DNA of 42,386 nucleotides from Candidatus Uhrbacteria bacterium (GTDB lineage Bacteria > Patescibacteriota > Patescibacteriia > UBA9934), in assembly GCA_943354605.1 (NCBI GenBank), contig CALRCK010000001.1, positions 41,868 through 84,253 on the forward strand, given 5' to 3'. Made by a program: the position numbers and the translations under genes. The notes beneath the pieces are model-generated. The model was not told where the DNA came from, did not search any database, and saw nothing but the letters and a program-made list of their open reading frames with translations. Of the stretch, positions 3,671 to 12,163 are shown piece by piece. How positions within the stretch are numbered: the stretch's first letter is position 1; the number at the start of each line of letters is the position of its first letter.

Positions 3671-4906
3671 ATGGAACTCGCACTCAATATTCCCATGAGT
3701 GCCAGCCCCACCCGCCAGAAATTCTGGCGGGTGTTGCGCGTTGCAGGGACTCTTCTCACGGCATGGAGCATTGTCGCCGGCGTCCATCGCCTCGCCTTCG
3801 CATTCAGCACGATAGTTCCACCAACCGATGCCGTAGCGATTCGCTTGATCAAAAACGACGGGACCATCGCAAGCCTACGATCGCTCACAAAAGGAATGAA
3901 TGTCGTTCCCGGAGTACCGATCTCGCTCGCCGACGCGCTCAACAACACCAACCGAACGCTCAACGTTTGGTTCGAATCCGACGGCAGTACAACGATGATT
4001 CTCGATCGCAAGCTCACCGATCCCGAAGCTGCCGCGATCACGTCGTTCGGTGCAACCGTTTTTCAGCAAGGCGGTGTCACGATCATCACAAACAAACCTG
4101 TCACCACACCAGTTTCCACCAGTGTTCTCAAGAATATTCTTCCAACACTCCTTGGCGGCGATGCCGCAACACTTGCGTTTGGAAACGATCGGACGAATAT
4201 TTCGATCACATCAGAATCGATCACCCTGCATGGCACAGCATTCCTCGCGGCACCAAATATCGACGAATCCATTACCACAGACACTGTTTTTTCTGCGAAT
4301 ATCCCAGCGTCGGATATATCTGCGCTCGTCCCGCGAACGTTTACCCAAAATACCCCAGGATTTTCGGCGCTTTTCATGCTCGCGGCACAAAACGGCGTCT
4401 CTGCACGCATCGACCGAAATGGAGACGCCGCGCTGTATACCCTTGCCCTGCCGCTCACGGCCGAGACGCAATTTTACGCAAATGAAGATTCGTTAACGCA
4501 CATCGGAAAAGAGCTCGTGGAAATCCCAACCATCGACGGGATTACGACATTCCTCGACGACGGAAGTAAATCCATTACGCTCCGCTCTCGCGAGGAGGCA
4601 AGCATCCTCATCCGCGACGAAACACCGTATCGATTCATCACCGCAACATCGTCGTACGGTGCCGCATACATCACACAAACTCCAACACTCCTTACGGTCA
4701 GCAACCATGTGCAAAACACCGCCACTGCGCAACCGCGTATAGCCCCATGTCTTTCTGGCGCGGTCGCCTTTGTTCAGCCAACAAATCTTTTCTCAGGAGT
4801 CGAAACAGAAACGTTTTATCGGTCAACACAACTTTCGAATCTCTTATGGCACGCAAAGGAGATTGCAAGTACACATTCAACAACACGTATCTGCATTTCT
4901 GAATAA
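3671..4906 (+). CDS. hypothetical membrane-anchored/exported protein
   Basis: 411 aa uninterrupted ORF directly downstream of pnp, one N-terminal hydrophobic segment (LRVAGTLLTAWSIVAGVHRLAFAF); no family recognised. Confidence 0.75.
   Translation: MELALNIPMSASPTRQKFWRVLRVAGTLLTAWSIVAGVHRLAFAFSTIVPPTDAVAIRLIKNDGTIASLRSLTKGMNVVPGVPISLADALNNTNRTLNVWFESDGSTTMILDRKLTDPEAAAITSFGATVFQQGGVTIITNKPVTTPVSTSVLKNILPTLLGGDAATLAFGNDRTNISITSESITLHGTAFLAAPNIDESITTDTVFSANIPASDISALVPRTFTQNTPGFSALFMLAAQNGVSARIDRNGDAALYTLALPLTAETQFYANEDSLTHIGKELVEIPTIDGITTFLDDGSKSITLRSREEASILIRDETPYRFITATSSYGAAYITQTPTLLTVSNHVQNTATAQPRIAPCLSGAVAFVQPTNLFSGVETETFYRSTQLSNLLWHAKEIASTHSTTRICISE
3709..3733. repeat. perfect palindrome (12+1+12) at start of 3671 ORF
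   Basis: CACCCGCCAGAA-A-TTCTGGCGGGTG. Confidence 0.85.
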
Positions 4907-9286: not shown

Positions 9287-10576
9287 ATGTCGCACACCAT
9301 CGAACGCGTTGCCGATAACCAGATGAAAATCACCGTCGTTGTTCCAAAAGACAAGGTGTTCGCCGCAATGCATGTTGCCGCCGACGAGCTGTCTCGCGTG
9401 ATGAACATTCCAGGCTTCCGCCCAGGCGCGGCAAGCTACGACGTGGTAAAACAGCGCGTTGGTGAAATGAAAATCCTCGAGGAGGCTGCTGAGGAGCTGA
9501 TTCGCGCATCACTCGCTTCCGCGCTCATCGAGGAAGACTTGGACATTGTTGGAGCGCCGCATTTTACAATGGATGTAATGATTCCTGGAGAAGACCTCAT
9601 TTATAGCGCCGACATCGCGCTCATGCCAAAGGTGAAAAAGCTCGCGGACTACACAAAGCTCGTCGTTGAGCGAAAGCCAACGGAACCAACCCCGGAGATC
9701 ATTGAAACCGCAAAGAAGGATCTCGCCCGAATGCAAACAAAGGAAACACGCGCCGCAGCTGGAAAGAAGCTTGAACAGGGCGATAAAGCCGTCGTGAACC
9801 TCACCATGAAAAAGGATGGTGTGGTGCTTGAAGGTGGTGAAAGCCAGAATCACGGCGTGTACACCACCGAGGCACACTACATCGATGGTTTCGTGACCCA
9901 AATTCTCGGCATGGCAGAAGGCGACGAAAAAACCTTCACCCTAAAATTCCCAAAGGATCACTACCAGAAGCATCTTGCAGACAACGACGTAGACTTCACG
10001 GTTCGCTTGAACGAAATCTTCACCATCGAAACGCCAGAGCTTGATGAAGAATTCGCGAAGCGCCTTGGTTTCGAGAACGCGGCAATGCTCGAAGAAAAGC
10101 TCAAGGAAAATCTCGCCGCAGAAAGCGCCGTTGAAGAACGCCGCCGCCAGGAACGCGAATGCCTTGATCTTCTTGCGCAAAAATCTGAGTTCGACGTGAT
10201 CCCAGACATTCTCGTAAACCAGGAACTTGAGCGCATGCTTCGTGAACTCGAGCACTCTGTTGGCGAGAACGGTATGGAGCTGAAGGATTACTTGAAATCC
10301 ATCGGCAAGACGGTTGCAGAAACCAAACTCGATTTCACTCCAACCGCACTAACCCGCGTAAAAGTTGCGCTCCTTATTCGCGAGATTGGAAAGAAAGAGA
10401 ACATCGATGTCGACGCGAAGGCCGTCGATGCCGAGCTTGATGTGATTGCCGACCGACTTGGAGAAGACAACGAAAATCGTGCCCGCGTCTACGAACCAGA
10501 ATATCGCGAATTTGTAGAATCTCAAATGCGCAATCGCGCCGTCGTGGACCACATCATGGCCGCAATGGTGAAATAG
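9287..10576 (+). CDS. tig: trigger factor
   Basis: Ribosome-binding GFRPGAAS.. (GFRxGK-like), PPIase and C-terminal chaperone regions. Confidence 0.95.
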   Translation: MSHTIERVADNQMKITVVVPKDKVFAAMHVAADELSRVMNIPGFRPGAASYDVVKQRVGEMKILEEAAEELIRASLASALIEEDLDIVGAPHFTMDVMIPGEDLIYSADIALMPKVKKLADYTKLVVERKPTEPTPEIIETAKKDLARMQTKETRAAAGKKLEQGDKAVVNLTMKKDGVVLEGGESQNHGVYTTEAHYIDGFVTQILGMAEGDEKTFTLKFPKDHYQKHLADNDVDFTVRLNEIFTIETPELDEEFAKRLGFENAAMLEEKLKENLAAESAVEERRRQERECLDLLAQKSEFDVIPDILVNQELERMLRELEHSVGENGMELKDYLKSIGKTVAETKLDFTPTALTRVKVALLIREIGKKENIDVDAKAVDAELDVIADRLGEDNENRARVYEPEYREFVESQMRNRAVVDHIMAAMVK

Positions 10577-10582
10577 TTTACA

Positions 10583-10611
10583 CAAAACGAGATCGACACG
10601 ATCTCGTTTTG
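10583..10611. terminator. bidirectional hairpin terminator (tig / 10615 gene)
   Basis: CAAAACGAGATCG-ACA-CGATCTCGTTTTG, 13-bp perfect stem between convergent genes. Confidence 0.85.
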
Positions 10612-10614
10612 TTT

Positions 10615-11550
10615 TCATCGGTAGATTCTTTTTCTCCCGTTTCCGGCCCTCAGATTCGTATACTTTCGAAATTCACACCCGATTCCTTCCCAGTTCTCCA
10701 CCGACAGCCGGAGCGGCACACCATCGATCGTGATTCCGGTCTCAAAGGGAATCGACCGCAGCCTCATAGCGAGATCGACGAAATCCGCGGCACCATTAAT
10801 CATCTGCATTGTTGGAATCGATCCTGGGCCAATAGGGAACGCGGCAAAAAGGTCTATGCGATCCGGATATTGATACGCGATATCGATAAGAACCTCGGTC
10901 CAAAGAAATTCCAAATTGAATCCGAACACTGGAAGAGTCCTTTTCACACCACCAAGCACCGACATCGCCCTCCACGATTCAATTTCGCCAGCGATCTTTT
11001 GCATGATCGATGGTAAATACTCGCAGATAAACCGCTCCCTATTCGGCGTTGAGCTCTTTTGAATCGTTGAGACTGGAAACACATACGGTGTTCCGTATCG
11101 CGGTCGCGACGACGCCATGAGTCGATCATAAAGCTCGCGATTTTTCTCGGGATCGAATGATAATAGCCCAACACTCTCAATCGTCTCCGGCCGCGCAACC
11201 ATACGGCAGTAAAACATGTTCAAGAGCCACAGCGGGAAGTCATCCCGCAGTGGATTCAACGTCGTGTGAATCGCGATAGTTTGCTTATCGAACTCTCGAA
11301 ACACATTGCAGAATCGATACCTCTGCAAAATTGGATCGTTCGTATACGGCATCGGCGCATTCGAGATTTTCTTTTGCCAAATCGACAGTCGTTCATGAGC
11401 AAAATCACAAATTTCTTTCACTATCGTCAAATTAGCGAGATCGGATTCACGATCAATCACGCCGACGTGACGAGACCAGTGACGGTAGAGAACACGAATG
11501 TGGTGGGGAAGTTCCATAGAATTCGTACTTCTCCGAACGTTTGAAACCAT
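10615..11550 (-). CDS. DNA base hypermodification-like protein (5-hmdU DNA kinase helical domain / alpha-glutamyl-putrescinyl-thymine pyrophosphorylase-like)
   Basis: 311 aa; core YTNDPILQRYRFCNVFREFDKQTIAI resembles the DPILxxYRFTNVFRxxDK motif of that family. Confidence 0.6.
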   Translation of the reverse strand: MVSNVRRSTNSMELPHHIRVLYRHWSRHVGVIDRESDLANLTIVKEICDFAHERLSIWQKKISNAPMPYTNDPILQRYRFCNVFREFDKQTIAIHTTLNPLRDDFPLWLLNMFYCRMVARPETIESVGLLSFDPEKNRELYDRLMASSRPRYGTPYVFPVSTIQKSSTPNRERFICEYLPSIMQKIAGEIESWRAMSVLGGVKRTLPVFGFNLEFLWTEVLIDIAYQYPDRIDLFAAFPIGPGSIPTMQMINGAADFVDLAMRLRSIPFETGITIDGVPLRLSVENWEGIGCEFRKYTNLRAGNGRKRIYR

Positions 11551-11601
11551 TTTTACACATCGGAGCTATTCGCGATACTGGTAGGATTTTGTATATCCCA
11601 A

Positions 11602-11628
11602 CTTGAGGTCGCAAATTGCGACCTCAAG
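11602..11628. promoter_or_regulatory. perfect palindrome (13+1+13) in divergent intergenic region, candidate operator
   Basis: CTTGAGGTCGCAA-A-TTGCGACCTCAAG. Confidence 0.7.
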
Positions 11629-11653
11629 ACCCTCACTCTCGAATAAAGACTCT

Positions 11654-12163
11654 ATGCTCCCGCTTTTACCGACAGAGATTATTGAAAATCGAATATTCAT
11701 CGTTCGCGGAAAGAAAGTGATGGTCGATAGGGATCTCGCTCGATTATACGGAGTAAAAACCACGGTCCTCAACCAAGCCGTTCGAAGAAACATTGATCGT
11801 TTTCCTCAAAACTTCTGCTTCCAACTTACCGAGGACGAATGGAGATCTTTAAGATCACAATTTGTGATCTTAAAGCCTGGTCGTGGTGGCAAAGGGTTCC
11901 GCCCACTCGTGTTCACCGAACACGGAATTGCTATGCTTTCTGGCGTTCTTAAAAGTAAGCGCGCAATTGCAATCAATATCCAAATCATCAACGCATTCAT
12001 CTCTCTCCGCGACATGGCACTCGAACATTCCGATCTCCGGTTACGAATCGACTTCCTGGAAAAACACTACGACGAGCAGTTCAAAATCGTCTTTAATGCG
12101 TTACGACAGACGATTGATGACGATTCCAGGAAAAGCAAAATTGGATTCAAAGGGGAGAAGTAG
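11654..12163 (+). CDS. ORF6N-domain DNA-binding protein
   Basis: ENRIFIVRGKKVMVDRDLARLYGVKTTVLNQAVRRNIDRFPQNFCFQLTEDEW...RPLVFTEHGIAMLSGVLKS: ORF6N domain; ATG 11654 preferred to TTG 11603. Confidence 0.93.
   Translation: MLPLLPTEIIENRIFIVRGKKVMVDRDLARLYGVKTTVLNQAVRRNIDRFPQNFCFQLTEDEWRSLRSQFVILKPGRGGKGFRPLVFTEHGIAMLSGVLKSKRAIAINIQIINAFISLRDMALEHSDLRLRIDFLEKHYDEQFKIVFNALRQTIDDDSRKSKIGFKGEK
11847..11875. repeat. perfect palindrome (14+1+14) inside ORF6N coding sequence
   Basis: CTTTAAGATCACAA-T-TTGTGATCTTAAAG; sister of 11602-11628. Confidence 0.9.

Follow-up and report, generated by a model that had tools for sequence, protein, structure and literature searches.

The ORF6N genes of many bacterial phyla nearly always contain, at one point in their coding sequence, a short odd palindrome whose DNA, rather than the peptide it encodes, is under selection. 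The site was encountered in a stretch of 42,386 nucleotides (nt) from Candidatus Uhrbacteria bacterium (contig CALRCK010000001.1, positions 41,868 to 84,253), hereafter the window. Judged from comparative sequence data, the ORF6N family may well carry in its coding sequence its own cis-acting DNA site, to which the ORF6N protein putatively binds in regulating its own gene.

The window gene lies at 11654..12163 on the plus strand, encodes 169 amino acids and matches the PF10543 and PDC-S05 profiles. Its intragenic palindrome, CTTTAAGATCACAA-T-TTGTGATCTTAAAG (11847-11875, 14+1+14), spans the LRSQFVILK codons, the gene position occupied in most homologues. An upstream palindrome of the same site type, CTTGAGGTCGCAA-A-TTGCGACCTCAAG (11602-11628, 13+1+13), has its centre 39 nt ahead of the ATG. 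Both are strandless features and 100% paired. They are the longest odd palindromes of the 42-kb window (chance expectation 0.0006 for arms of at least 13 nt), and the TCRCAAWTTGYGA core is matched just twice in the entire 938-kb genome, by these two. A first-pass annotation, made from the letters of the window alone, had described both palindromes as perfect, with core differences at the complementary positions 3/23, 6/20 and 9/17 and at the centre, and with an in-frame spacing of 246 nt; all of this was reproduced. It had also read both copies as coding in the same frame, of which the spacing holds and the coding status of the upstream copy probably does not. The open frame runs on upstream to TTG 11603, beyond ATG 11654, the likely start, which matches the N-termini of homologues. 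With that start the upstream palindrome is probably untranslated and would fall in the promoter or 5' untranslated region (5'UTR), leaving coding constraint on the internal copy only.

The comparison set of 232 ORF6N genes was drawn from Patescibacteriota loci, genomes of many phyla, viral contigs and Chitinophagaceae. A near-perfect odd palindrome, defined as at least 10 of 11 pairs with pairs 2-12 counted, occurs at the same gene point in 205 of them (11/11 pairs in 114, 10/11 in 91), extending to related genes the palindromic DNA described at this motif segment of the window gene. In the source phylum, a Pfam search placed ORF6N in 24 of 384 genomes, nearly all with the palindrome at the same gene position, and gammaproteobacterial ORF6N genes behave like the rest. 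The divergent gene L305, which we read from its sequence as a phage KilA-type gene, has no palindrome. A phage origin of the ORF6N gene was rejected, given this divergent gene without the site and only four matching phage records, all unannotated.

Selection on the DNA of the site, as opposed to the encoded peptide, is strongly supported, because covariation of the arms far exceeds peptide demand and the site occurs in different reading frames. The internal site is usually read as LRSQ(I/F)(V/A)TS; in 13 genes another frame is used at the same place, typically giving E(V/L)(I/V)xxCDxL. When 155 genes were each recoded with random synonymous codons (300 shuffles), the mean best score was 7.4 of 12 pairs, against 11.0 of 12 observed; the observed palindrome beats this null at p<0.05 in 146/155 genes and exceeds all 300 shuffles in 113/155. 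The synonymous null and the second reading frame together rule out a peptide motif as the cause. Arm complementarity is 95% in register and falls to 16-30% if the partner is shifted by 1-3 bases. Parsimony on a protein tree built without the loop counts at least 300 two-sided changes, in which one Watson-Crick pair replaces another, against 105 pair-breaking changes. The first-pass annotation had argued from the window pair for selection on DNA symmetry, and the null, the two frames and the covariation bear it out.

A fixed core is combined with variable arms. The tip CAAWTTG and pair 6 (T:A) are nearly fixed, with pairs 2, 3 and 6 almost invariant; pair 1, which would lie in the triloop, is retained in just 67%, and symmetry declines past pair 13. 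Other pairs vary yet stay complementary, independently of protein similarity, and 153 half-sites include 73 different ones. In a group of syntenic orthologues (ORF6N joined to a phospholipase-D-like domain, by our own reading, beside a topoisomerase gene) the palindrome shows 0-3 changes in 27 nt, against 18-71% difference at four-fold sites, while the more distant L058 departs from this group at 7-9 palindrome positions, mostly in complementary pairs. Replacement may also be wholesale: among close relatives (L131/L122 and the L052 paralogues) loop and palindrome have been exchanged entire, even into another frame, and L024, L006 and L018 carry tandem in-frame palindrome units. Upstream and internal sites of one gene are each more than 90% symmetric at positions 4-8 and agree above chance at positions 7-13. 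The palindrome as a point for modular swapping of N- and C-terminal halves was considered and rejected, the signs of it being weak.

In the genomes screened, 384 from the source phylum and 40 from Chitinophagaceae, the site is confined to ORF6N loci, and no long palindrome of the ORF6N type was found away from them. Twenty other core matches in the phylum were inspected, and the 13-mer matches proved to be short chance matches, save one unrelated perfect repeat (L169). Of the two 17-mer matches in ORF6N-free Chitinophagaceae genomes, one is short and falls within a different gene, and the other is an unrelated repeat, probably terminator-like. The remainder of 231 coding regions holds two additional palindromes. 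Extra copies within 300 nt are biased to the 5' side, occurring upstream of 32/229 genes (14%) and downstream of 8/215 (4%; p=0.0002), with most upstream centres 24-114 nt ahead of the gene start. Genes without an internal palindrome have a flanking one in 4/6 cases, against 31/205 (p=0.008, post hoc); with the group widened to all 27 genes scoring up to 9, significance is lost (p=0.17). Two of the genes without an internal palindrome, L279 and L287, have upstream palindromes with TGGAGG/CCTCCA arms and retain WRE in their loops, as though a WRSQ-type site had been relocated. The upstream region of L021 holds three different palindromes in an array with 36-nt spacing.

ORF6N (PF10543) is annotated as a DNA-binding domain. 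The window protein matches it at 1.9e-31 (108.6 bits; gathering score 27.8), its sole Pfam match, with zero NCBIfam matches, and the gene is present as a single copy in the source genome. The best fold matches of its AlphaFold model are Ski/Dachshund DNA-binding-type domains, and are weak; no solved structure related by sequence was found. In the model the palindrome covers a helix end and the first part of a loop of low confidence, probably disordered, whose codons (11861..11890, plus strand; residues 62-71, predicted local distance difference test below 50) begin at the palindrome centre.

The site is thus near-universal in a mobile family, absent elsewhere in the screened genomes, constrained as DNA and interchangeable between loop and 5' flank, which together argue for a cis-regulatory role. 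Its putative reader would be the ORF6N protein itself, as the sole partner sure to accompany the gene across so many phyla. The element would consist of an inverted repeat with a near-fixed tip and arms of 12-13 bp, in which sequence is free to change and complementarity is required, at a point where a tolerant loop of the protein is encoded. Binding would lower transcription of the gene, as a roadblock inside it or by occlusion of the promoter or 5'UTR at an upstream copy, so that autoregulation would travel with the gene behind whatever promoter it meets. Symmetry could be kept up because the pairing itself, as cruciform or hairpin, is recognised, or because it is the fixed core that is recognised, with template switching keeping the two arms equal. 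The more specific proposal, that the ORF6N protein recognises the tip and the pairing of an extruded hairpin or cruciform and not its arm sequence, so that the arms may drift or be exchanged as cassettes with symmetry retained and the control site travels between phyla, is put forward tentatively.

The first-pass annotation had proposed an operator bound by the ORF6N protein or another dimeric factor. Indirect support for an operator comes from the 5' bias of flanking copies and from the tendency of genes without an internal site to have a flanking one; other parts of that scheme fared worse. Two covarying operators, upstream and internal, find no support in the frequency of upstream copies or in the agreement within one gene at positions 4-5, which is 0.56 against 0.54 for random pairs; outer positions agree somewhat above chance. 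The symmetric but freely changing arms are not explained by a simple dimer whose single sequence specificity is either fixed or co-evolving. Several observations weigh against the favoured reading: this chance-level agreement between two sites of one gene at their inner variable positions, a promoter-side copy in a mere 14% of genes, site identity at the variable positions 4, 5, 7 and 8 that is roughly flat (0.48-0.54) over 30-80% protein identity, and the good palindrome kept by many broken ORF6N copies. Site decay in broken genes is small (75% vs 89%) and not decisive.

Among other explanations, a classical dimer operator, in which ORF6N homodimers read a specific half-site and each lineage has its own specificity, with both halves changing together, is unlikely, though it survives best. 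It accounts for the near fixation of pairs 2, 3 and 6, for the conservation of arms among syntenic orthologues and for the above-chance agreement of upstream and internal sites at their outer positions 9-13. It does not account for positions 4-5, where sites of the same gene agree like shuffled pairs despite the high symmetry of each, nor for L131 and L122, whose nearly identical proteins have unrelated palindromes. Site identity unchanged from 30% to 80% protein identity is not what a plain sequence-specific autorepressor predicts, and arms that must be complementary yet need have no sequence in common even within one gene make a plain dimer operator insufficient.

Somewhat less probable still is homogenisation, in which the fixed core has a function of some kind and the arms are held equal by template switching of DNA polymerase, with no selection on pairing. 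Template switching is an established process that equalises short inverted-repeat arms, coding sequence included (PMC8604942, PMC8794818), and it would fit the covariation of the arms, and agrees with loops and arms that change in jumps and with G-T and A-C mismatches of equal frequency. It would explain how symmetry is kept and not why the site is present, leaving unexplained the constant gene position, the near-fixed core, the 5' bias of extra copies and the flanking copies of genes without an internal site.

A selfish short palindromic element lodged in the tolerant ORF6N loop, in the manner of the Rickettsia palindromic elements, was the main alternative of the first-pass annotation and appears improbable. 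The tandem in-frame units of L024, L006 and L018, replacement as a whole unit and persistence in broken genes would suit such an element, but it has not dispersed, long copies being absent outside ORF6N loci in both screened genome sets, and it is strongly conserved among orthologues. A recombination site that exchanges loops or gene halves is very improbable: some close relatives (L131/L122, L052) have loop and palindrome replaced together and some gene copies are split around the loop, but discordant N- and C-terminal halves occur in few pairs, homologous recombination in conserved flanks would look alike, and no recombinase is linked to the gene. Least credible is an mRNA hairpin governing translation or decay of the ORF6N transcript; a strong hairpin is predicted (with DNA parameters), but the palindrome has no Rfam match and arm mismatches show no excess of G.U (30 G-T vs 36 A-C at internal sites, 41 vs 53 with upstream sites added), so that the sites do not tolerate G.U over A.C as structured RNA does, which tells against mRNA as the object of selection.

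The ORF6N gene is also a phage-defence candidate, an unvalidated one, through the match of its product to the PADLOC candidate profile PDC-S05 (E 1.4e-53); most PADLOC PDCs still await validation (PMC12988326). Type I restriction or methylase genes make up merely 3/83 operon-side neighbours of ORF6N genes. In L306 a palindrome-bearing ORF6N remnant stands between a RhuM-like gene before it and an HsdS-like gene directly after it, and from the translations it appears to sit within a type I restriction locus. ORF6N is fused to a C-terminal phospholipase-D-type nuclease-like domain in L058 (2971-3849), L201 (1426-2340) and L024, and the fusions of L058 and L201 directly follow a topoisomerase gene, as in integrative elements. 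Chitinophagaceae genomes (e.g. L210-L229) have up to nine ORF6N copies each, many broken or split at the palindrome-bearing loop. Most ORF6N proteins share a near-invariant IGF motif near the C-terminus (alignment A1).

Elsewhere in the window, a possible sigma-70-like promoter, TTTACA-16-GATACT (11552..11579, plus strand), lies ahead of the upstream palindrome; it is a weak consensus match of a kind no commoner than in shuffles. An inverted repeat with 14-bp arms (10582-10612), between a trigger-factor-like gene (9287-10576, plus strand) and a convergent gene (10615-11550, minus strand), is probably a bidirectional terminator. An odd palindrome with 12-nt arms and a ACCCGCCAGAAATTCTGGCGGGT core (3709-3733) is not of the ORF6N type.

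The nearest known kinds, by analogy, would be intragenic operators, coding palindromes and self-repressing regulators of defence loci. The intragenic operators lac O2 in lacZ and gal OI in galE are, as proposed for the ORF6N site, regulatory palindromes within coding sequence, sometimes with a promoter-side partner, but are fixed sequences of single systems, whereas the ORF6N site has covarying arms and is family-wide across phyla, mostly without an upstream partner. Rickettsia palindromic elements are in-frame palindromic insertions tolerated by proteins, as here, and are dispersed over many genes, unlike the site confined to ORF6N loci. REP palindromes resemble it in covarying stems, a conserved short motif and a tie to one gene family; they are dispersed and intergenic and are paired with RAYT, a Y1 transposase, whereas ORF6N is the one Pfam match of the window protein, which has none in NCBIfam. 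Perfect inverted repeats are also kept inside protein-coding sequence in mitochondrial genes of Nematomorpha (PMC6649704); the ORF6N site differs in being a single short site, found in one gene family, that is under selection as DNA and can be read in two frames. RptR, a small DNA-binding autorepressor, acts at a defence-linked promoter through palindromic 6-bp TAGCTA sites (PMC12255303), and the proposed ORF6N scheme would share self-repression through palindromes at a defence-linked gene. RptR is an unrelated protein with promoter-only sites; the ORF6N site lies inside the gene and measures 25-29 nt. No prior description of the palindrome, its peptide or palindromes in ORF6N genes was found in a search that left subscription journals and preprints mostly uncovered.

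At the ORF6N site a constraint acting on the DNA determines part of the encoded protein, and does so in many bacterial phyla. For a DNA-binding family that is widespread, uncharacterised and listed among phage-defence candidates, the site offers a first lead on function, and it offers a possible route by which a horizontally moving gene may regulate itself behind any promoter. If pairing itself is what is read, the site would correspond, in DNA and within an open reading frame, to a covarying stem of RNA. It would then be one of the rare natural instances in which DNA hairpins or cruciforms are selected for, and covariation would reveal this as it does for structured RNA.
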